Shown here piece after piece: positions 46,601 through 54,786 of a stretch of 64,000 bases of DNA (position 1 is its first letter; each line of letters opens with the position of its first letter). A model generated the notes under the pieces. That model saw only the letters and a program-made list of their open reading frames with translations. It was not told the DNA's origin and ran no database searches. The position numbers and the translations under genes are program-made. The stretch covers positions 744,001-808,000 of the forward strand of contig NZ_VFRA01000001.1 in assembly GCF_006788895.1 (NCBI RefSeq), written 5' to 3'. Origin of the DNA: Rhodoglobus vestalii (GTDB lineage: Bacteria; Actinomycetota; Actinomycetes; Actinomycetales; Microbacteriaceae).

Positions 46601-46684
46601 CGCGGTCTGCTGCGCGCGGTAAGGCGGCGGGTCGATAGCGCGGCAGCGCGATAGTTCGGCCGTTCGATAGCGCGGCAGGCCAGC

Positions 46685-47081: not shown

Positions 47082-48077
47082 TTATCTGCTGGGCAGCTTG
47101 GTATGCGCGCCGAAGTCATCCGGTGCAAGTGACAGGGCGACTCCATCGAGGATGTCGTGCTCACTGGTCGTGACCCACTTGAGCGGTCTGCCGGTGGCGG
47201 CCGTGGCATCCGCGACCCGCTGCAGGATGGTCGACCAGATGACAGCACCGGCGGTGATGACGTCGACCCGACCCGGGTGCATGTACGGCAGAGCTGCCCG
47301 TTCGGCGCGGGGCATTCGGCTGAGGGCGTCGCAGGAGCGAAGCACGTCGGCCAGCGGTAGGCGGCTACCGCTGATGACCTCCGGGTCGTAGGAGTTGAGG
47401 CCGAGCGCGTGGGCCGTGACCGTGGTTACGGTGCCGGCCACTCCGATCACCTCTGTGGCCAGCGAGAGGTTGACGGTGGCTGTGGCTACGTCGAGGACTT
47501 CGGTAACGTCACGGCGGATGTCGGCGAGCTCCGTCTCAAGGGGCGGGTCACTGTGGATGTTTCGCTCAGCTAGGCGCACGCATCCGACATTCATCGAGTA
47601 GGCGGAGTCTGGGGTGCTGTTGCCGAGTACCAACTCGGTGGATCCCCCGCCGAGGTCGATCACGAGGTGTTGGGGTGTGGGTTCTTCGGGAGCGGGTTCG
47701 GCTAGGGCAGTGAGTGCGCCGCGGAACGATAACGCTGCTTCCTCGGTGCCCGGGATCACTTCGGCGGGGACACCGAGAATTGTGTGCACTGCGTCGGTGA
47801 ACTCTTCCCGGTTGGCAGCATCCCGGGTCGCTGATGTTGCTACGAAGCGGATGCGCTCCACATCGTGCTCGCGACAGAGCTCGGCAAACTTCTGGGTAGC
47901 GGCGAGTGTGCGTTCGAGCGCAGCCTCACTGAAGCGACCGGTGCGGTCGACGCCCTCTCCCAACCGAACCAGCTCGAGCGTGCGCACTACGTCGCGGAGC
48001 CCACCCTGCCCGTCAAGGTCAGCAATGAGCAGGCGGATCGAGTTCGTTCCACAATCAAAAGCGGCAACACGGGTCAT
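47082..48077 (-). CDS. ppx: Exopolyphosphatase / guanosine pentaphosphatase (Ppx/GppA)
   Basis: 331 residues of ASKHA fold: FDCGTNSIRLLIAD phosphate-1 motif, FVATSATRDAANR, catalytic region PGTEEAALSFRG and second phosphate motif VIDLGGGSTELVLG. It hydrolyses polyphosphate or pppGpp. About the shorter (single-module) length of actinobacterial Ppx. A frameshifted fragment of a second copy lies at 48825-48985, about 750 bases upstream of its start. Confidence 0.93.
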   Translation of the reverse strand: MTRVAAFDCGTNSIRLLIADLDGQGGLRDVVRTLELVRLGEGVDRTGRFSEAALERTLAATQKFAELCREHDVERIRFVATSATRDAANREEFTDAVHTILGVPAEVIPGTEEAALSFRGALTALAEPAPEEPTPQHLVIDLGGGSTELVLGNSTPDSAYSMNVGCVRLAERNIHSDPPLETELADIRRDVTEVLDVATATVNLSLATEVIGVAGTVTTVTAHALGLNSYDPEVISGSRLPLADVLRSCDALSRMPRAERAALPYMHPGRVDVITAGAVIWSTILQRVADATAATGRPLKWVTTSEHDILDGVALSLAPDDFGAHTKLPSR

Positions 48078-48126: not shown

Positions 48127-48474
48127 TCACGGCAGCGCGAGAAAGTCGCGAAGCCAAACGTCAACCTCGCGCATGGTTGCCGCATCCACAGTGCCCGCAA
48201 CTTCATGCAGACGCTCACGCGTAATCACCCGCGGTTGTTCAGTCATCGCGTATGTGGTCTGCTTTAGCACGAGATTGGGACCCCGCATCGGCACGTGATT
48301 TGGCCACGCCCGATCAGAGGTGGTCGCCGGGACGATGATAGCGAGGGTGTCTGCTTGTTGGAGGTAGAGATCGCTGGCAATAACAAGTGCGGGGCGACGC
48401 CCAGCCTGTTCGCGTCCACGCGCAGGATCGAGTTCCGCCCAAACGACCATCCCCCGCCGGAGTTCATTCGCCAT
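48127..48474 (-). CDS. MazF/PemK-type toxin
   Basis: 115 residues of CcdB/MazF fold: RRGMVVWAELDPARGREQAG, RRPALVIASDLY, and TLAIIVPATTS. Predicted sequence-specific endoribonuclease. Its start overlaps the antitoxin gene by 11 bases. It lies at the left edge of the accessory island next to ppx. Confidence 0.88.
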   Translation of the reverse strand: MANELRRGMVVWAELDPARGREQAGRRPALVIASDLYLQQADTLAIIVPATTSDRAWPNHVPMRGPNLVLKQTTYAMTEQPRVITRERLHEVAGTVDAATMREVDVWLRDFLALP

Positions 48475-48691
48475 CGCGTATATCTCTCACCAGCACATCC
48501 CATGTCTGGAATTCATCCCAATACTCTTGTTCCGCGCCGCGAAACGCGCGCCCAAACGACTCCATGCGCCGGCGCCGTTCGTGCCCGTCGAGAAGCCCTT
48601 CGATCAGACCGGCCGCCGTCACCCCACGCTCCTGCGCATCCCGGTTAATCCGGTCGCGGAGTTCAACCGGGACCTTAATCGTCGTAGCCAT
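48464..48691 (-). CDS. Ribbon-helix-helix antitoxin partner of the MazF-like toxin
   Basis: 75 residues beginning TTIKVPVELRDRINRDAQERG, a ribbon-helix-helix strand plus helix, followed by a charged C-terminal tail (GAEQEYWDEFQTWDVL) expected to wrap the toxin. TATACT (revcomp 48698-48703) ends 6 bases before the ATG, so the mRNA is probably leaderless. A 24-bp palindrome lies directly upstream. Confidence 0.85.
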   Translation of the reverse strand: MATTIKVPVELRDRINRDAQERGVTAAGLIEGLLDGHERRRRMESFGRAFRGAEQEYWDEFQTWDVLVRDIRDGE

Positions 48692-48731: not shown

Positions 48732-48774
48732 CGGTTTCGCGCTCGAAGGACTTCGCCACGCTTCTGCAAAGTTC

Positions 48775-48985
48775 ACTAGTTGCTGAAGGGGACGTCCACC
48801 GCGTCGCCGCCGTTCATGACGTACGCTGTGGAGCCCCCGCCGAGGTCAACGACAAGGTAATGAGCTGTCGACTATTCGGGGCGGCTGCGGTGACGGCGGT
48901 GAGTGCGCCCCGGAACGACAGGACCGCCTCCTCCGTGGCCGGAATGACTTCGGCGCGGCAACTTCGAGAATGCTTGGGGCGTTAA
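48775..48985 (-). pseudogene. Frameshifted ppx fragment fused to a ychF-like 3' end
   Basis: On the minus strand, 48985-48825 is related to codons for about residues 100-155 of Ppx: one frame reads EVIPATEEAVLSFRGALTAV, another reads LVVDLGGGST, so at least one frameshift separates them and an extra base precedes EVIPA. At 48824-48775 the frame goes straight into YVMNGGDAVDVPFSN-stop, which matches the YchF C-terminus (YVMTDGDVVEFRFNN-stop). The last 50 bases match the 3' end of ychF at 39 of 50 positions. The divergence from ppx at 47082-48077 shows an old or foreign copy, not a recent duplication. Confidence 0.8.
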
Positions 48986-49422
48986 AACGACGCCTTATCG
49001 ACCAGGGCCCGCGCTGCCTTCTCGGCGCGCGCAAGTTGTGACTTGCTGATGGGGTCATGGCCATACCCAGCGCGAGTTTTCATTCCCAGCAAAACATTGA
49101 GCGAACTCGATGCTTGTTTATCGACGGATGCGAGCAATGTGACCGCATCTTGGTGGCTGTGCCCTTTGGCATGTTTCCCGACTGCAGCTGCGCAGATCGC
49201 GTCTGCCGCTGCGATTCCCGCGTGAACGTAAAGAGTGACGACGGCATTTCTCACGTCCTCTTCGTCTGATAGCTCACGGACATCCTCTGTGACGCGCAAG
49301 AACTGCTTGGCTTTAGCGCGTCGCCCTTGTTCAACGGCTTTGTCGGCCGTCAGCGTTGTGACCTTGTCAGCCTTGGATTCACGCGCGCTCCCTAACTTTT
49401 TCGAAGCCGCTTTCGCAACCAC
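48982..49422 (-). CDS. Helical HEPN-like partner of a nucleotidyltransferase
   Basis: 146 residues, all-helical. After a Lys/Ala-rich N-terminus the core reads VRNAVVTLYVHAGIAAADAI, GKHAKGHSHQDAVTLL and GMKTRAGYGHDPIS, the layout seen in HEPN proteins paired with MNT-type nucleotidyltransferases. The RNase motif RxxxxH is not obvious, so toxicity is uncertain. GTG start 31 bases inside the upstream gene, indicating tight coupling. Its end touches the ppx fragment. Confidence 0.55.
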   Translation of the reverse strand: MVAKAASKKLGSARESKADKVTTLTADKAVEQGRRAKAKQFLRVTEDVRELSDEEDVRNAVVTLYVHAGIAAADAICAAAVGKHAKGHSHQDAVTLLASVDKQASSSLNVLLGMKTRAGYGHDPISKSQLARAEKAARALVDKASF

Positions 49423-50003
49423 GAGTGGTCTCCGGCTATCTCGATTCCATAAGCGAGGACGGAGTCAAAAATCGCGGCAGGCTGCACCTCTGAATCGCGG
49501 TACACCAAAGGGCGCACATCATTGCCGGTCCACACAGTAACTTGGGCAGCAAATTGCCGCACGGACTCTTCCACAGCATCTTCGGCTTCAGCGTCGGGCA
49601 CAACGATCAAGACGTCGATGTCACTGTCCGTGCGCATTTCGTTGCGGGCAGCCGAACCGAAAAGAGTGACCGCGAGTGGCTGAAATTGCCAACCCGAAAT
49701 GGTGTGAGCCATCCGGGCGATCAGCTCACGCTTGGCATCAGCAATTTGCGCAATGGCGCCGGCCAATAAGTGTTCTCGATTGAAGGCGAACGCATAGCCG
49801 CGGCCGGTAATACGCTGCACAAGAATGCCTTGTTCAACGAGTCGTCCCGCGGAAAGCCGCACTCCCTGGTGGGAGCCGACTTCGGGCAGCAACTGATGGA
49901 TCTCTCTAATGGTGAGATATTGCTCACTGCGCACGAGCACCGTGAGCACCTGCGAGTCGATGCCCGTGGTACTTATTGCTGAGAATGGGTTCTGCAGTCG
50001 CAT
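49392..50003 (-). CDS. Winged-helix plus MNT-type nucleotidyltransferase
   Basis: 203 residues. Residues 1-~80 are a winged helix (LTIREIHQLLPEVGSHQGVR, LVEQGILVQRITGRGYAFAF). Residues ~105-180 are a nucleotidyltransferase with LFGSAARNEMRTDSDIDVLIV (Gly116-Ser117, Asp128, Asp130). With the helical partner this fits a HEPN-MNT (type VII) toxin-antitoxin module in which the transferase AMPylates the toxin. The winged helix may bind the repeat array upstream. Shine-Dalgarno GGGAGG precedes the ATG. Confidence 0.8.
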   Translation of the reverse strand: MRLQNPFSAISTTGIDSQVLTVLVRSEQYLTIREIHQLLPEVGSHQGVRLSAGRLVEQGILVQRITGRGYAFAFNREHLLAGAIAQIADAKRELIARMAHTISGWQFQPLAVTLFGSAARNEMRTDSDIDVLIVVPDAEAEDAVEESVRQFAAQVTVWTGNDVRPLVYRDSEVQPAAIFDSVLAYGIEIAGDHSWLRKRLRKS

Positions 50004-50040
50004 GGCGCCTCCCTCGAATGCTACCGAACTGCATTAGCTT

Positions 50041-50100
50041 TACATAAAAATAGACGACTGTCTATAAAAATAGACGGACATCTATAAAAATGGATACCGC
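50041..50100. repeat. Three 20-bp direct repeats (AT-rich operator array)
   Basis: Units at 50041-50060, 50061-50080 and 50081-50100, sharing TxTATAAAAATxGA with exact 20-base periodicity (the first unit has TACATAAAAATAGACG). On the coding strand of the nucleotidyltransferase gene each unit reads ...CTATTTTTATAGA.... The array is 38 bases upstream of its ATG in otherwise GC-rich DNA. It probably contains the promoter and operators of the module. Confidence 0.8.
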
Positions 50101-50257
50101 TCCGATGGCAGCTGATCCGAATCAGCTCCTTGCTAGCACTTGATAGCGAAACTCGATCTGAGACGCTGCTCACCGCGTCGATGCTAACCATTCCTCCCGT
50201 GCTCGTCGTTCTTTTCGAGGGTCTACCGGTTGTGCCTCTTGTCGTTGAAGCGGAGCG

Positions 50258-50932
50258 CTACTCCCTGCCGTCTTCGAGCGGGATGAGCATGGTGCGGAAG
50301 GGTCCGGCGGCGGAGTGGATCTCCCAGAGGCGAGAAGCGACGTCGTCAATGCCGTTGGGCAGCTGAAGCTTGGGAATGCCTCCCGGGATGACGAGCTGAC
50401 GGACGCGGATGCCCTCCCCCTCGAGCGCTTCATAAAGCATCTCGCCGTAGGCGCTCTCGGCCGGGAAGGCAAGCGATGTTCCGGCGAAACCGGCGCGGGC
50501 CTTCACCGAGGTTCCGCCGTTGATGAGGATGATGCTGCCGTCACCCGTTTCGCGCATTGCGGGCAGCACCGCACGCACCGCGTGGATGAGGCCGAGCGCG
50601 GAGAACTGCAGCGCTTCCAGCGCCAGCTCTGGCGTCAGGTCGAGCACCGGCTTCAGGTAGTCGCGCGACGGGAGCGGGCTGTACTGCAACGTCGTGATCG
50701 GACCCAACTCGGCGGCGGCGCGCGCGAGCGCGGCCTCAAGCTCTGCCGGCTCCAGCACATCCGCAGCGTAACCGCGCGCGGTCACATCAACCGCTTCGAG
50801 TTCCGCAGCCAACGCATCGAGCTTCGACTGATCCCTTGAGATCAGGGCAACCGCGAAGCCTTCGCGTCCGAACTTGCGAGCTACCGCTGCTCCGAGTCCC
50901 GGTCCGGCTCCGATGATGGCGATGACAGGCAT
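50258..50932 (-). CDS. Short-chain dehydrogenase-like protein with altered active site
   Basis: 224 residues, Rossmann fold with IIGAGPGLGAAVARKFGREG (cofactor loop) and SRDQSKLDA. The usual YxxxK catalytic pair is replaced: aligned on GIRV, the segment reads GFAGTSLAF, i.e. Phe for Tyr and Ser for Lys; the NNAG motif is also absent (TLQYSPLPS). It may bind NAD(P) without standard oxidoreductase chemistry or use other residues. ATG 50932 with AAGGAG upstream. It is a single-gene unit between the MNT module and a ychF-tail repeat. Confidence 0.8.
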   Translation of the reverse strand: MPVIAIIGAGPGLGAAVARKFGREGFAVALISRDQSKLDALAAELEAVDVTARGYAADVLEPAELEAALARAAAELGPITTLQYSPLPSRDYLKPVLDLTPELALEALQFSALGLIHAVRAVLPAMRETGDGSIILINGGTSVKARAGFAGTSLAFPAESAYGEMLYEALEGEGIRVRQLVIPGGIPKLQLPNGIDDVASRLWEIHSAAGPFRTMLIPLEDGRE

Positions 50933-51050
50933 TGTGAACTCCTTCGGTCGAAGATGACCATGGGGAGGGCCGGTCGAAAGCCTATCAAGACGCGGTCGAG
51001 CGGCCGCGTGGGGCAACCATCGCATGCATCATCGCGTCGCCCGCCAAGGC

Positions 51051-51084
51051 GCTAGTTGTTGAAGCGGAACTCCACCGAGTTCCG
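51051..51084 (-). repeat. ychF 3'-end-like repeat, copy C
   Basis: First 26 bases match the ychF 3' end at 53636-53661 at 25 positions, including the stop codon, and encode the same end (VEFRFNN-stop) on the minus strand. The core CGGAACT-CCACC-GAGTTCCG forms an inverted repeat (51066-51072 with 51078-51084). It lies between the SDR gene and the ParDE module. Confidence 0.85.
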
Positions 51085-51119
51085 GCACACAGCAACCTCT
51101 CGACCGGCCGTCGACACGC

Positions 51120-51410
51120 CTACACGTGCCGGGTCGGATCCATCTGTTGGTGCAGGATGCGGATCACGTCCACGCTTTCGGCCCTCTCGACATAGAAGAC
51201 TGAATGGCTGCCGATGCTGTAGCGACGGTATCCCTCAAGAATGTCGTCGCAAGCACGTCCGCGACGAGGGTCAGCAGCGATCCGCTCGATCGCTGCCCTC
51301 AACTCGGATATGTAGATCTCCGCCTGAGTCTTATCCCAACGCTCCTGAGTGAAGTCCCAGATTTCTGAGAGGTCTCGCTGCGCAGCCGGCGTGAGGCGGT
51401 AGCTCTTCAC
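51120..51410 (-). CDS. ParE/RelE-type toxin
   Basis: 96 residues of RelE/ParE fold: YRLTPAAQRDLSEIWDFTQE, IAADPRRGRACDDILEGYRR, and HSVFYVERAESVDVIRILHQ at the end. ParE members poison gyrase; the family can also be ribonuclease-like, not decidable here. Start overlaps the antitoxin stop by 4 bases. Confidence 0.9.
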   Translation of the reverse strand: MKSYRLTPAAQRDLSEIWDFTQERWDKTQAEIYISELRAAIERIAADPRRGRACDDILEGYRRYSIGSHSVFYVERAESVDVIRILHQQMDPTRHV

Positions 51411-51640
51411 TGCTTCTTCGACGCGACGAAGGCGTCGAAGTCGAAATCTTCCGGCGCGCCACTGTCTTCACCCGCAATGAGCGCAGCCCTCAACGCCGCC
51501 ATCTGCGTCTCCTGATCTTCCAGCAACCGGAGCGCAGCACGAACTACTTCGCTGGCGGAGCGGTACCGTCCGGCCTCAACCTCTCGGGAAAGGAATCGCG
51601 CGAAGTGGTCGTCCAGACTGATCGAAGTGTTCTGAGCCAT
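51407..51640 (-). CDS. ParD-type antitoxin
   Basis: 77 residues: ribbon-helix-helix N-terminus (NTSISLDDHFARFLSREVEAG, RYRSASEVVRAALRLLED) and an acidic C-terminal tail (GAPEDFDFDAFVASKKQ) that would bind the toxin. TATTCT (revcomp 51647-51652) ends 6 bases before the ATG: leaderless, as for the MazE-like gene. Confidence 0.9.
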   Translation of the reverse strand: MAQNTSISLDDHFARFLSREVEAGRYRSASEVVRAALRLLEDQETQMAALRAALIAGEDSGAPEDFDFDAFVASKKQ

Positions 51641-51650
51641 GCGCTCAGAA

Positions 51651-51665
51651 TACCAAAGATTGGTA
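51651..51665. promoter_or_regulatory. Operator palindrome of the ParDE operon
   Basis: TACCAA-AGA-TTGGTA, a perfect 6-bp inverted repeat just upstream of and touching the TATTCT -10 (51647-51652). Likely autorepressor site of ParD. Confidence 0.7.
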
Positions 51666-51698
51666 ATTTTGCGTGCAACAATACTAGATCGGCACGAC

Positions 51699-51732
51699 GC
51701 TAGTTATTGAAACGGAACTCCACCGCGTTCCG
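51699..51732 (-). repeat. ychF 3'-end-like repeat, copy B
   Basis: Matches copy C at 31 of 34 positions and the ychF 3' end at 23 of 26. It keeps the stop codon and encodes the same YchF C-terminal residues on the minus strand. CGGAAC and GTTCCG form an inverted repeat around the centre. It separates the ParDE module from the AbiV-like gene. Confidence 0.85.
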
Positions 51733-51811
51733 AACCCGATACACATTAGGTTTTCTGGACTCGCAAAGGGTCGCCCGTGCCTTTATTTCAGTCATGCAGG
51801 ACACTAGAGAC

Positions 51812-52660
51812 ATGGGCCGTTCACTACCGCTTCCCGGCGATCTCTCCCCCGCGCAGGTCATCGCAGTTCAGGATGCCTTACTATCCAACGCGGATCGCCT
51901 GTTGCAGGCAGCCTTAGCGATGCTTGAGAGAGAGAACGTGCCGCTCGCGCGGTCGCTGGCAATCCTCGGTATGGAGGAATCGGGCAAGGCCATCGCGCTG
52001 CACGAGCGCCGGGTCCAAATCGCGCACGCACCCGAAGGCGCGGCGTTTGTCGATCAGCGGCTCCAAGACCTCTGGGGGCAGCATGGGCGAAAGCTCGAAG
52101 TCGTTCACGAGTTCTTAGTCACCGAGGAGTACTGGTTCGACGTCGAGCCAGCGAACCCGGAAGAGAACGCGCGCGTACTCGGGACGATCGAGGCGTGGAA
52201 GCGTGACCACAACCTCATCAAGCAGCGCGGCTTCTACGTGGACGTCACCGCCGATGGTGATCCGGTCACTCCCCAGGAGGTTGCTGACGCGGATGCCGTG
52301 CGCGATGTAATCAGCCATGTGCACCAGATCGGTTGGCAGCTCAGGTCGGGTGAACACATCGAGGGCAAGCGACAGCTCCAGCACGAGCAGGACGTCCCAC
52401 CGGCGACCGAGGAAGAGATCGAAGGTGTCCGACGTACAATGCGGAGCGTGGATCCCGAGGTTGTCGAGGGCTTCGTGGGGTCGATGCGCGAAGGCACCAA
52501 AGGCGAGAAACTCAACAACAGGGCGCACGCCTTCGTTCTGCCAGCGAGCCCATTCAACACCGTCGGGCAGCCCGGGTACGAGGCCCAGGACCGCGAGCTA
52601 TGGGCGCTGGCGCAAGAGGGCCTAGAGAACACCGGAGAGGTGCCCGACAGCACGCCATGA
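51812..52660 (+). CDS. AbiV-family abortive infection protein
   Basis: 282 residues. The N-terminal helical domain carries the AbiV hallmark LARSLAILGMEESGKAIALH (Glu55-Glu56-xx-Lys59), a HEPN-like arrangement; the rest is helical and charged. Lactococcal AbiV interferes with phage translation; family members are often in defence islands. Start 51812 is favoured over 51794 because GACACT (51800-51805) ends exactly 6 bases before it, as at other leaderless genes here. It is on the plus strand, opposite to the three toxin-antitoxin pairs. The 235 bases to the next gene (52661-52895) contain nothing I recognise. Confidence 0.75.
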   Translation: MGRSLPLPGDLSPAQVIAVQDALLSNADRLLQAALAMLERENVPLARSLAILGMEESGKAIALHERRVQIAHAPEGAAFVDQRLQDLWGQHGRKLEVVHEFLVTEEYWFDVEPANPEENARVLGTIEAWKRDHNLIKQRGFYVDVTADGDPVTPQEVADADAVRDVISHVHQIGWQLRSGEHIEGKRQLQHEQDVPPATEEEIEGVRRTMRSVDPEVVEGFVGSMREGTKGEKLNNRAHAFVLPASPFNTVGQPGYEAQDRELWALAQEGLENTGEVPDSTP

Positions 52661-52895
52661 TTTACCGGCGGGGTTCAGCCTTAGGCTGCGTCGAACCAGG
52701 TGAACAGATGCGTCGATTAGAGGAGCGTAGGTAGCATCGGAGAACCGTTCCGGGTGGGCAATTCCCACTCATTCCAGCGACACTGCTCGTCGAAGCCATT
52801 ACTGACCGCGCCGCACAAAGCACCGCGCCCCTGCGTGCAAGACTAGACGCGTTACGAGTCGCGCCAACCCGAGGCGGGGCCGATCGGGGAGAAAC

Positions 52896-53558
52896 TTGAC
52901 GAACGCTACAAAGGACGAAATCGAACCATCTCGACTCCAGAAAGCGGTCGAAGCGATCGCCATCACACCGGCCTCGGCCGCGATCCTCGTTGACGGTTAC
53001 CGTGAGAACTTCGAGACAAAGTTCAACCGAGCACCCGAGTCCGCGGAGGACAAGAGTCAGATCGCCAAGAAGATTATTGGCAGATACTCCAAGCTTGCGG
53101 CGACAGCAGGGGCTGTAACTGCACTGCCAAGCGTGATCCCAGGGGTAGGCACAGCCATCGCTGTCGTTGGGGGCGGGGTCACAGATCTAGCACTAGCGCT
53201 CAAGCTTCAAATCGATATGTGCACGTGTCTCGTAGAGGTTTACAACGCCGAATTCAGCGACGAGGATAAAAAGCATCTGGCGTTCGTGCTCGCATTGGCA
53301 GGTTCGGTAGAACAGCTTGCGGCGAACGGAGGCAAGGCTGCCGTTCAAAAAGTCGCCCAGAAGCTCGTTTACCAGTACCTCAAGGGCCCGGCTTTGGTAA
53401 CCATCAAACAGTTATTCGCCCGATTCTCCATCGTTTTCACGCAAAAGGCCATGGCTAAAGCGATACCAGCGGGCGTGGGTGTTGTTTTCAGCGGTTCGAC
53501 TAACTACGTTCTCACCACGATTGTGGGCAAAGTCGCGGTAGCGGTCCTAGCCAAGTAG
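52896..53558 (+). CDS. EcsC-like hydrophobic helical protein
   Basis: 220 residues. A charged helical N-terminus (1-~60) precedes a hydrophobic stretch (AATAGAVTALPSVIPGVGTA, then VVGGGVTDLALALKLQIDM) resembling the EcsC family. A second hydrophobic region is near the C-terminus (AIPAGVGVVFSGSTNYVLTTI). Probably membrane-associated. TTG start with GGGGAG upstream. It lies between AbiV and ychF in the island; a role in defence is only suggested by position. Confidence 0.6.
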   Translation: MTNATKDEIEPSRLQKAVEAIAITPASAAILVDGYRENFETKFNRAPESAEDKSQIAKKIIGRYSKLAATAGAVTALPSVIPGVGTAIAVVGGGVTDLALALKLQIDMCTCLVEVYNAEFSDEDKKHLAFVLALAGSVEQLAANGGKAAVQKVAQKLVYQYLKGPALVTIKQLFARFSIVFTQKAMAKAIPAGVGVVFSGSTNYVLTTIVGKVAVAVLAK

Positions 53559-53635
53559 TCGATCAGCAGCGGCCACCAAAGCTGCTGCCGAATCGGTGCT
53601 CGTCAACGCCTAACACTCGATCGCGCGTGCAGTTT

Positions 53636-53685
53636 GCTAATTGTTGAAGCGGAACTCCACCACGTCGCCATCGGTCATGACGTAG
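53636..53685 (-). repeat. ychF 3' end, parent sequence of the island repeats
   Basis: This is the functional copy inside ychF. Related copies lie at 48775-48824 (39 of 50 identical), 51051-51084 and 51699-51732. All are in the same orientation and include the stop codon. Confidence 0.85.
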
Positions 53686-54713
53686 TCCTTGCCCTCAACG
53701 CGAGCCTTGCCCTTGGCTCGAGCCTCTGCGATGGAGCCGGTGGCGACGAGATCCTCGAAGCCGATGACCTCAGCCTTGATGAAACCCTTTTCGAAGTCCG
53801 TGTGAATAACACCGGCAGCCTGGGGTGCCTTGGCACCCTTCGGGATAGTCCAGGCGCGCGACTCTTTCGGGCCGGCAGTGAGGTACGTCTGCAGGCCGAG
53901 AGTGTCGAAACCGATGCGAGCGAGCTGGTCGAGACCGCTCTCTTCTTGGCCGGTGCTGGCAAGCAGTTCGGCGGCATCCTCTTCGTCGAGGTCGATGAGT
54001 TCGGCCTCCAACTTGGCGTCGAGAAAGATGGCCTTCGCGGGGGCAACCAGAGCCGCCAATTCGGCGAGCTTTTCGGTGCTGCCGAGCACCTCTTCATCCA
54101 CATTGAACACGTAAATAAAGGGCTTGGAGGTGAGCAAGCCCAGTTCGCGGATCGGCTCGAAATCAAGCTTTGTCGCGGAAGACAACGGCTTACCCTCGTT
54201 CAGCACAGTCTGCGCCGCGAGCGCAGCCTCAAGCACAGCAGGCTCGATACGCTTGGTCTTGAGCTCTTTCTCGTAGCGAGTAATCGCCTTGTCGAGAGTT
54301 TGAAGATCAGCCAGAATCAGCTCAGTGTTGATGGTCTCCATGTCGGAGGCGGCATCCACCTTGCCATCAACATGAATAACATCGGGGTCGCTGAAGGCGC
54401 GCACCACCTGCGCAATAGCGTCAGCCTCGCGGATGTTTGCCAAGAACTTGTTGCCCAGGCCTTCACCCTCGCTGGCGCCCTGCACGATACCGGCGATATC
54501 AACGAAGGAGACCGGAGCAGGCAGAATGCGCTCACTCTTGAAAATCTCCGCCAGCACCTTCAGGCGCGGATCAGGGAGGTTGACGACGCCCACGTTCGGT
54601 TCGATGGTTGCGAAGGGATAGTTCGCGGCGAGCACCGAATTCTTGGTCAGAGCGTTAAAGAGAGTGGACTTGCCGACATTCGGGAGTCCAACGATTGCAA
54701 TAGTGAGAGCCAC
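53637..54713 (-). CDS. ychF: Redox-regulated ribosome-binding ATPase YchF
   Basis: 358 residues: Obg-like P-loop (VGLPNVGKSTLFN), FVDIAGIVQGASEGEGLGNKF, NVDEEVLG, and a C-terminal TGS domain ending VMTDGDVVEFRFNN. It is ATP- rather than GTP-specific in this family. GTG 54713 has AGGA 9 bases upstream; a TTG three codons earlier is unsupported. Its last codons are the parent sequence of the repeats in the adjoining island, marking this gene end as the probable insertion site. Confidence 0.95.
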   Translation of the reverse strand: MALTIAIVGLPNVGKSTLFNALTKNSVLAANYPFATIEPNVGVVNLPDPRLKVLAEIFKSERILPAPVSFVDIAGIVQGASEGEGLGNKFLANIREADAIAQVVRAFSDPDVIHVDGKVDAASDMETINTELILADLQTLDKAITRYEKELKTKRIEPAVLEAALAAQTVLNEGKPLSSATKLDFEPIRELGLLTSKPFIYVFNVDEEVLGSTEKLAELAALVAPAKAIFLDAKLEAELIDLDEEDAAELLASTGQEESGLDQLARIGFDTLGLQTYLTAGPKESRAWTIPKGAKAPQAAGVIHTDFEKGFIKAEVIGFEDLVATGSIAEARAKGKARVEGKDYVMTDGDVVEFRFNN

Positions 54714-54786
54714 GGGGGTCAATCCTACCGGCGATAGCGGCCCCCAGGAACGAGACCGCTATCGCAAGCAAAAAACGAGCCAGACG

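Follow-up and report, generated by a model that had tools for sequence, protein, structure and literature searches.

The 64-kb stretch of the Rhodoglobus vestalii genome analyzed here (contig NZ_VFRA01000001.1, positions 744,001 to 808,000), which we call the window and in whose coordinates all positions are given, carries the gene for the GTPase/ATPase YchF at 53637..54722 on the minus strand, and behind the 3' end of this gene lies a row of small cassettes that end in copies of the gene's own tail. The YchF protein ends in VVEFRFNN and contains the YchF-GTPase_C domain (Pfam, E 9e-38). Reading outward from ychF, the order is an EcsC-like gene, an AbiV gene, site 1, a ParDE pair, site 2, an SDR gene, a decayed half-site and a nucleotidyltransferase pair, followed further outward by a ppx fragment joined to a ychF fragment, a PemK-like pair and ppx. 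An earlier note on this DNA had reported that the last codons of ychF recur at several places in the orientation of the gene, and had proposed that site-specific insertion at the ychF 3' end built a tandem array in which each cassette left a tail copy as its scar. The copies are present where it placed them and in that orientation, and the proposal holds in outline, with small cassettes that each end in a ychF tail. Two things are absent from that reading: a true copy makes up just half of a longer site, and large serine recombinases (LSRs) lie beside such sites in other genomes.

Tail copies and cassettes in the window

The tail repeats of the window are real. A 49-bp site model whose training sequences came from other genomes gave five matches in the 64 kb, all in the orientation of ychF and thus on the minus strand. 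The ychF 3' end itself (53637..53661), the putative integration target and attB or attL side, scored 49.5 (match at 53661); site 1 (51700..51724), which agrees with the ychF tail at 22/25 positions, scored 53.6 (at 51724), and site 2 (51052..51076), which agrees at 24/25, scored 60.9 (at 51076), both having the appearance of displaced tails of attR type. The two remaining matches are a decayed half-site (50238..50262; 21.0 at 50262), inside which the homology of the SDR region to the relative G306 stops at about 50255, and a third tail copy, a piece of ychF about 50 bp long that is joined to the ppx fragment (48776..48824; 24.9 at 48800) that aligns at 80% over 54 bp (48770-48823).

The next-best score in the window on either strand was 7.1, and the weak candidate marked in the earlier note at 50239-50253 is therefore above background (21.0 versus 7.1 as the best outside the five sites). 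Background maxima were 11.1 over 2.82 million positions of reversed plus complementary locus sequence and 11.2 on 238,711 unrelated bases. At three or fewer mismatches the shuffled window gives 0.00 expected tail matches, and the whole genome (2.84 Mb in a single contig) has three places, namely ychF and the copies at 51052 and 51700; the suggested genome-wide search for further copies thus led, at this threshold, back to the window. Sites 1 and 2 each bear an arm of about 24 bp that is absent from ychF, on what would be the recombinase side: TAATGTGTATCGGGTTCGGAACGC at site 1 (51725..51748, minus strand) and AGAGGTTGCTGTGTGCCGGAACTC at site 2 (51077..51100, minus strand).

The cargo of the first cassette, on the plus strand, comprises an EcsC-like protein (52896..53558), for which PF12787 stayed below cut-off (E 2.9e-5) and PADLOC PDC-S29 gave E 1.9e-6, and an AbiV-type HEPN protein (51812..52660; PF18728, E 2.3e-31). 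That of the second, on the minus strand, is the antitoxin ParD (51407..51640; PF03693, E 2.3e-35) and the toxin ParE (51120..51410; PF05016, E 4.9e-22). The earlier gene calls stood for AbiV, ParE, ParD and the nucleotidyltransferase described below; that for EcsC is weak, being below cut-off, and the HEPN-like partner of the nucleotidyltransferase has no Pfam match.

By the site model the ParDE cassette is flanked by a strong site at both ends; at this cassette no tyrosine integrase was found, and no LSR remnant within 1.5 kb. Its orthologue in G306 has a decayed site that is visible by alignment and lies below the reach of the site model, the counterpart of that site in G082 scoring 19.4, and the cassette is probably old. 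The idea that AbiV relatives travel as one mobile cassette was considered and set aside: an AbiV relative occurs in 5 of 398 genomes, the window's included, and of the other four only G096 has a weak site nearby (18.6), the remaining three having none. A plasmid search with the island returned separate gene homologues and ychF ends only.

Sites, recombinases and displaced ychF endings in other genomes

The comparison proposed in the earlier note, across the Microbacteriaceae, revealed similar arrays. In this family the ychF tail pattern (three or fewer mismatches) was found in 132 of 299 sampled genomes, with at least two matches in 23 of the 299, the window's genome included; loci behind ychF were then fetched with a preference for multi-copy genomes. 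Thirty of the 89 loci at which ychF was located hold 48 further downstream tail copies; reversed sequence gave 0, and none of the copies shown for these 89 loci is on the opposite strand. Where the fetched site did not adjoin ychF (11 genomes), ychF lies on the correct side at 1.2-24 kb in 10 and on another contig in the remaining one. In the final set 39 of 102 ychF loci have an extra site scoring at least 20, and 19 have at least two, for a total of 72 sites with the window's four included; the set is enriched for arrays and so yields no prevalence estimate, and among the 72 are some extended ychF copies as well as one tyrosine-integrase end. Between sites lie 60 intervals with a median length of 1,134 bp, 52 of them being 2,701 bp or shorter; this list takes in the interval of the window that proved resident, and also the doubtful L098. 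Most of the small cassettes contain one or two called genes and one site each.

The chance-like site of L098 was dropped before counts, and for the site and arm models also three tyrosine-integrase ends (L200, L064 and L097) and the sites with a ychF-like left side. To the right of the core the cassettes share the ychF tail only, with little conservation past its stop codon. On the left, many have in common an arm that is missing from ychF: 23 of 63 sites show CGGAAC (at most one mismatch) at exactly -8, where shuffles give a mean of 0.39 and never more than 3, and 15 of 63 show AGGTTG at exactly -22. Given that these arm motifs look like inverted copies of the GTTCCG and CAAC found in the tail, the whole site is roughly palindromic, extending over about 47 bp around GYGGTGGA.

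A search for LSRs in 34 array genomes was positive in 14, and in two of these, G260 and G076, the LSR adjoins a strong cassette-type site. The two enzymes are 43% identical and both match PF00239 (Resolvase) and PF07508 (Recombinase) above cut-off, families with no match in the window itself; their relatives of solved structure include the TP901-1, YokA and A118 integrases. The G076 enzyme has homologues in 71 of 398 genomes. Thirty loci were fetched by protein similarity, and in five of them (G076, G034, G335, G260 and G141) a site with a score of 47-65 lies 24-60 bp away from the first LSR residue that matched; none of the other 25 has a site above 7.4. The site of G141 was in the training set of the site model, and those of G076 and G260 were left out of it. 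Four of these five sites are downstream of ychF on the same contig, ychF being on another contig for the fifth; G034 and G335, found via the enzyme and outside the array genomes, have theirs 12.7 and 7 kb downstream of ychF. Thus a likely candidate for the co-occurring recombinase that the earlier note had advised looking for was found in five Microbacteriaceae genomes. In the 24-kb stretch behind ychF of G260, an OLD-like gene (L232:688-2715, with AAA and TOPRIM domains) adjoins the LSR.

Beyond the family, 376 genomes of the order added site-adjacent LSRs in two genomes of another family, G645 and G604 (2 of 25 loci). In a scan of named genomes, 15 of 80 loci (14 contigs, two of which are G260 and G141) have a site no more than 200 bp from where the LSR starts, the site-bearing genomes including Jiangella, Pseudonocardia, Sinomonas, Mycolicibacterium, Nonomuraea, Cellulomonas and Pauljensenia; at 8 loci the LSR is within about 130 bp of ychF. 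In a viral scan (L382-L417) a site lies beside the LSR at 7 of 36 loci (L383, L385, L386, L388, L389, L393 and L394), two of them weak (26.2 and 15.8). Of the 116 LSR loci in these two scans, 13 had 250 bp or less before the LSR. Two loci, L325 and L326, come from a single contig and show the same LSR match in opposite orientations; this contig looks palindromic and is perhaps an assembly artefact. On a tree of 55 LSRs the presence of a site needs three changes, a number reached in 0 of 500 shuffles, although near-copies help this clustering.

The viral contig L394 appears to hold an unintegrated attP. Its two arms match each other at 14/19 positions; within G034, G076 and G260 the two arms match at 15/22 and, more weakly, within L385 at 11/19, raw counts that point to an attP-like palindromy.

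Cassette sites had been collected by the core alone, and an arm model was built from seven LSR-adjacent arms only. Three arms already among the seven were excluded from the test set. Of the 57 other cassette arms, 32 score above the level that 99% of the out-of-register controls do not exceed, as many do so when shuffles set the level, and of 90 ychF arms 0 pass. The window arms scored 12.4 at site 1 and 11.4 at site 2, against thresholds of 0.4 (out-of-register controls) and 1.8 (shuffles). In G335 an LSR element is followed by a VapC/PIN-like cassette (named by eye) with its own site, and in G147 one cassette retains 32 codons of an LSR (56% identity, E 1.5e-4) next to its site; the other LSR-less cassettes have no LSR remnant below E 0.1.

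The ending of YchF itself differs at many such loci. At 90 ychF loci, which were largely chosen by tail pattern and so are not a free sample, YchF ends in FRFNN (48), FRFNV (41) or FRFNT (1). Eight of 15 further loci end otherwise, with RHS in G076, G034, G260 and G039, FSK in G201, FSN in G106, FAR in G179 and FQATSGQK in G141, and in four of these eight genomes (G076, G034, G260 and G141) an LSR lies near ychF or the displaced tail. At LSR loci, 17 of 19 YchF ends differ from FRFNN/FRFNV (L224, L295, L302, L303, L315, L323, L347, L374 and others); RHS is found in M. hominis, Curtobacterium and C. uda, and the Lys-rich ends RSGLTSGGKK or RHNTTSPQKK elsewhere. Where the far site of the LSR element was on the fetched locus and could be read, it encodes a native ending, VEFRFNN or VEFRFNV in L295, L224, L315, L374, L347 and L311, and VKFRFNV in L323; a weak far match in L344 (15.2) has no native ending. 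Because native ychF ends are displaced behind LSR elements, the crossover would fall at or before GGTGGAGTTCCG, and we take these displaced endings as the strongest sign of conservative site-specific recombination.

Related genomes also contain a counterpart of the empty site, another outcome that the earlier note had looked for. Past the ychF stop, G306 has GGGTTTTCTGATTCGGG and then an amidotransferase-like gene (named by eye), and in G082 ychF is followed by at least two cassettes, each with an exact 25-bp tail at its end, and then by GGTTTTCTGATCCGGG and the amidotransferase-like gene at 96%; a decayed site (17.4) lies within the first G082 interval. A HigA-type cassette (named by eye) starts at the first base past the tail in three genera (L073, L225 and L230), its copies being 81-89% alike over about 600 bp and the adjoining tail being ychF's own in two of the three. 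A LON-domain gene is close behind ychF in four genomes (L106, L109, L110 and L111), and in G285 a transposase-like gene (by eye) and an Abi_2 gene stand between ychF and the LON-domain gene.

Proposed mechanism and competing explanations

The sites, their arms, the matching sites beside LSRs, the displaced ychF ends and the empty-site counterpart in relatives can be read directly from the DNA. From them we consider it probable, at roughly 0.8, that the ychF 3' end is the target of an LSR family and that the cassettes of the window are decayed inserts or passengers. An incoming circle would bring an attP, some 50 bp long and imperfectly palindromic around GYGGTGGA, and crossover at GGTGGAGTTCCG, common to attP and ychF, would place the element's own half-site at ychF and push the native last ychF codons to the far end of the insert. 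This far end would be attR, consisting of the element's other arm and the ychF tail. If the element half resembles the ychF tail, the target would be restored and reusable, and inserts would pile up. In the window two putative attR-type sites would survive, one ending the AbiV/EcsC-like cassette and the other the ParDE cassette.

No recombinase was found among the array genes, as the earlier note had remarked, and trans-mobilization or decay, which it had offered in explanation, is likely. The recombinase-less cassettes of the window are most likely decayed inserts, or passengers that have kept att sites and may be mobilizable in cis or in trans; decay of LSR elements and capture by LSRs in trans would each explain enzyme-less cassettes. 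That LSRs act on these sites, that they cross over at exactly this point, and that the small cassettes continue to move is what we infer from sequence comparison.

Several observations weigh against this interpretation. In the window's genome no LSR of these clades was found on searching, the nearest (35%) belonging to another clade, without a site, and more widely no such site is present at 65 of 80 named-genome and 29 of 36 viral LSR loci. The LSR of G330 falls inside a site-bearing clade and yet has no site nearby, and ychF was not seen in the fetched stretches near the LSRs of G645 and G604. Altered YchF ends occur with no LSR seen near ychF in G039, G106, G179 and G201, and the native FRFNV end is found beside an LSR in G335 and Rothia aeria. 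The start of the AbiV/EcsC cassette is unclean: about 56 bp right after the ychF stop (53581..53636) align with the ychF-proximal flank of G145, and are the 3' end of a gene located after the SDR gene in other relatives. Of the 57 cassette arms tested, 25 fail the arm model, owing to decay or to other enzymes. Finally, tyrosine integrases use the same ychF end in some genomes.

One competing explanation is that tyrosine-integrase elements, for which the ychF 3' end is likewise a target, put the cassettes in place. In G132 an intact integrase of 383 aa (L200, 17445-18596) lies directly against ychF, and its element also contains a phage tape-measure gene; tyrosine integrases that are broken or incomplete adjoin ychF in G295, G257, G218 and G347, and one lies 6 kb off in G174. 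The far copy in G218 matches from GGAGTTCCG with a site score of 25.0, and so is not clearly distinct from the cassette sites. However, in the far copies of G132 and G257 and the nearer one of G295, the ychF match starts only at about GTTCCG and the site model finds no site, integrases or their remnants occur in only 6 of about 100 loci and mostly in long intervals of 5-12 kb, and in the array loci checked no tyrosine integrase was found in the small-cassette arrays; we regard this origin as unlikely. The tyrosine-integrase elements at or near the ychF 3' end form a separate group (L200, L062, L064, L097, L193 and L203), and a phage collection contained one distant relative (30%) of the G132 integrase.

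Alternatively, the copies might be remnants of ychF duplication or homologous recombination, with no site-specific recombination involved. This does hold for the copy at 48776-48824, which has extra upstream ychF sequence and is joined to an internal fragment of a ppx-like gene (48823..48958, minus strand; 74-77% to 47633-47769); judging by fragment order, the fused fragment would be a tandem-duplication junction between ychF and ppx. The earlier note had read this copy as an insertion scar and had named ychF duplication as an outcome that would speak against its scheme, and for this copy alone that is the outcome. Elsewhere, the left side is close to ychF in 7 of 70 sites, with clearly extended ychF fragments in L080, L088 and L062 besides the window copy. 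Many of the other 63, however, have a non-ychF arm at fixed spacing (CGGAAC at -8 in 23), 32 of 57 arms match the LSR-adjacent ones, native tails are displaced behind LSR elements, and the two main window copies contradict duplication by their arms, so that duplication is very improbable as the general explanation. An integron-like system, in which an integron integrase of its own would act on folded single-strand sites, would suit small cassettes (median 1,134 bp over 60 intervals) with mostly one or two genes and one site each, but is scarcely credible given that site folding barely beats shuffles (29% under z -1, versus 7% of ychF tails), that the recombinases beside such sites are serine recombinases, and that no more than two tyrosine-recombinase matches, presumably XerC/XerD, were found in each of the array genomes G260, G306 and G197.

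Insertion at ychF by LSRs might also be part of something larger, an actinobacterial integron-like reservoir of defence and toxin-antitoxin cassettes, with one or two genes each, behind ychF that the LSRs of visiting phages and islands shuffle in trans, each visit rewriting the last residues of YchF, a conserved protein linked to translation, perhaps to the benefit of the element. This extension is tentative, and we think it more doubtful than likely.

Neighbouring genes, kindred systems and significance

Two further intervals had been taken for cassettes in the earlier note and prove to be resident chromosome. The SDR-family gene just past the array (50258..50932, minus strand) is ruled out as a cassette, given that a related gene is present in 8 of 21 loci and follows ychF directly in G052 (L114), and it is also found behind ychF or arrays in further genera. 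The nucleotidyltransferase of the MNT/HEPN-like pair (49392..50003, minus strand; PF01909, E 1.1e-8) has 88% DNA identity with G145, a close relative that shares the pair at the resident position; its partner is at 48982..49422 (minus strand). Just 5' of the nucleotidyltransferase gene, two head-to-tail 20-bp AT-rich repeats (50044-50083) are possibly an operator. Further out on the minus strand are a ribbon-helix-helix antitoxin-like gene (48464..48691; PF23807, E 1.7e-5, just below cut-off), a PemK/MazF-like toxin gene (48127..48474; PF02452, E 3.2e-22) and a resident gene (47082..48077) that we take, by eye and recall, to be ppx/gppA-like, a related gene being present in 7 of 21 loci. Beyond it, a GC-rich 32-bp repeat occurs in two tandem copies that are 81% alike (46614-46677).

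Protein sets for cargo analysis left out L062, L064, L097, L098, L200 and the third interval of the window; they were limited to intervals of at most 2,750 bp and proteins of at least 50 residues, and were cleared of same-genus duplicates from L056, L059 and L060. PADLOC assigned 14 families for 67 small-cassette proteins, which include at least one gene later found resident (the LON-domain gene of G285), versus 4 for 67 downstream proteins. We do not claim an enrichment in defence genes, since 8 of the 14 are models of one system, with one protein each, and others are regulators.

The arrays represent a real and recurrent system in which the serine-recombinase islands at a gene end have passengers of unusually small size. 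They have counterparts among known elements. The staphylococcal cassette chromosome (SCC) and pseudo-SCC elements are inserted by serine recombinases at the rlmH 3' end, in tandem, and some lack recombinase genes. The ychF system likewise has serine recombinases at the 3' end of a conserved gene, and all seven LSRs weakly match the CcrA and CcrB models, and XisF; it differs in that the CcrA score is 34 against a 700-bit cut-off (for the member shown), in its target, ychF rather than rlmH, and in its cassettes, mostly of about 1 kb. Integron gene cassettes form arrays, each cassette carrying one or two genes and closing with one recombination site. The cassettes behind ychF are alike in all these respects, but differ in their serine recombinases and palindromic att site, and no integron integrase was found in the arrays checked.

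The ssrA genomic islands of Dehalococcoides, which have a CcrB-like serine recombinase, DsiB, are similar in standing in tandem after a single conserved gene, with a short repeat of its 3' end bounding each island, in having beside the repeat a conserved motif that is absent from the gene, and in having an LSR at the edge of some islands and not of others (PMC3146451). Those islands, in another phylum, target a tmRNA gene and have a six-gene integration module, whereas here the target is the protein gene ychF, and a changed ending of a host protein is not mentioned in the part of that paper on which we draw (PMC3146451). Cis-mobilizable elements (CIMEs) also lack integration genes, keep att sites and are stacked beside other elements at a gene end, but derive from integrative and conjugative or integrative and mobilizable elements (PMC5704250) and not, as presumably here, from serine-recombinase elements; moreover, all but one of the cassettes examined have no trace of a former recombinase.

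In a literature search with most subscription papers and preprints outside its scope, the only work found on ychF together with a serine recombinase concerns pneumococcal phages. A pneumococcal prophage attB flanked by ychF has been reported (PMC8637289). Within the same scope no literature was found on a serine integrase with its attB in Microbacteriaceae, and no description of an effect on the YchF ending was found in the literature searched.

These results link a hotspot at which insertions recur in Actinobacteria to a family of recombinases, the gene that they would target and the site. The pairs of site and LSR are candidate integration tools, and the ychF cassettes offer a place to look for genes of defence and toxin-antitoxin systems, proteins of no known kind included. 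Finally, the swap of the YchF end by mobile elements raises the question of why that ending is tolerated or favoured.

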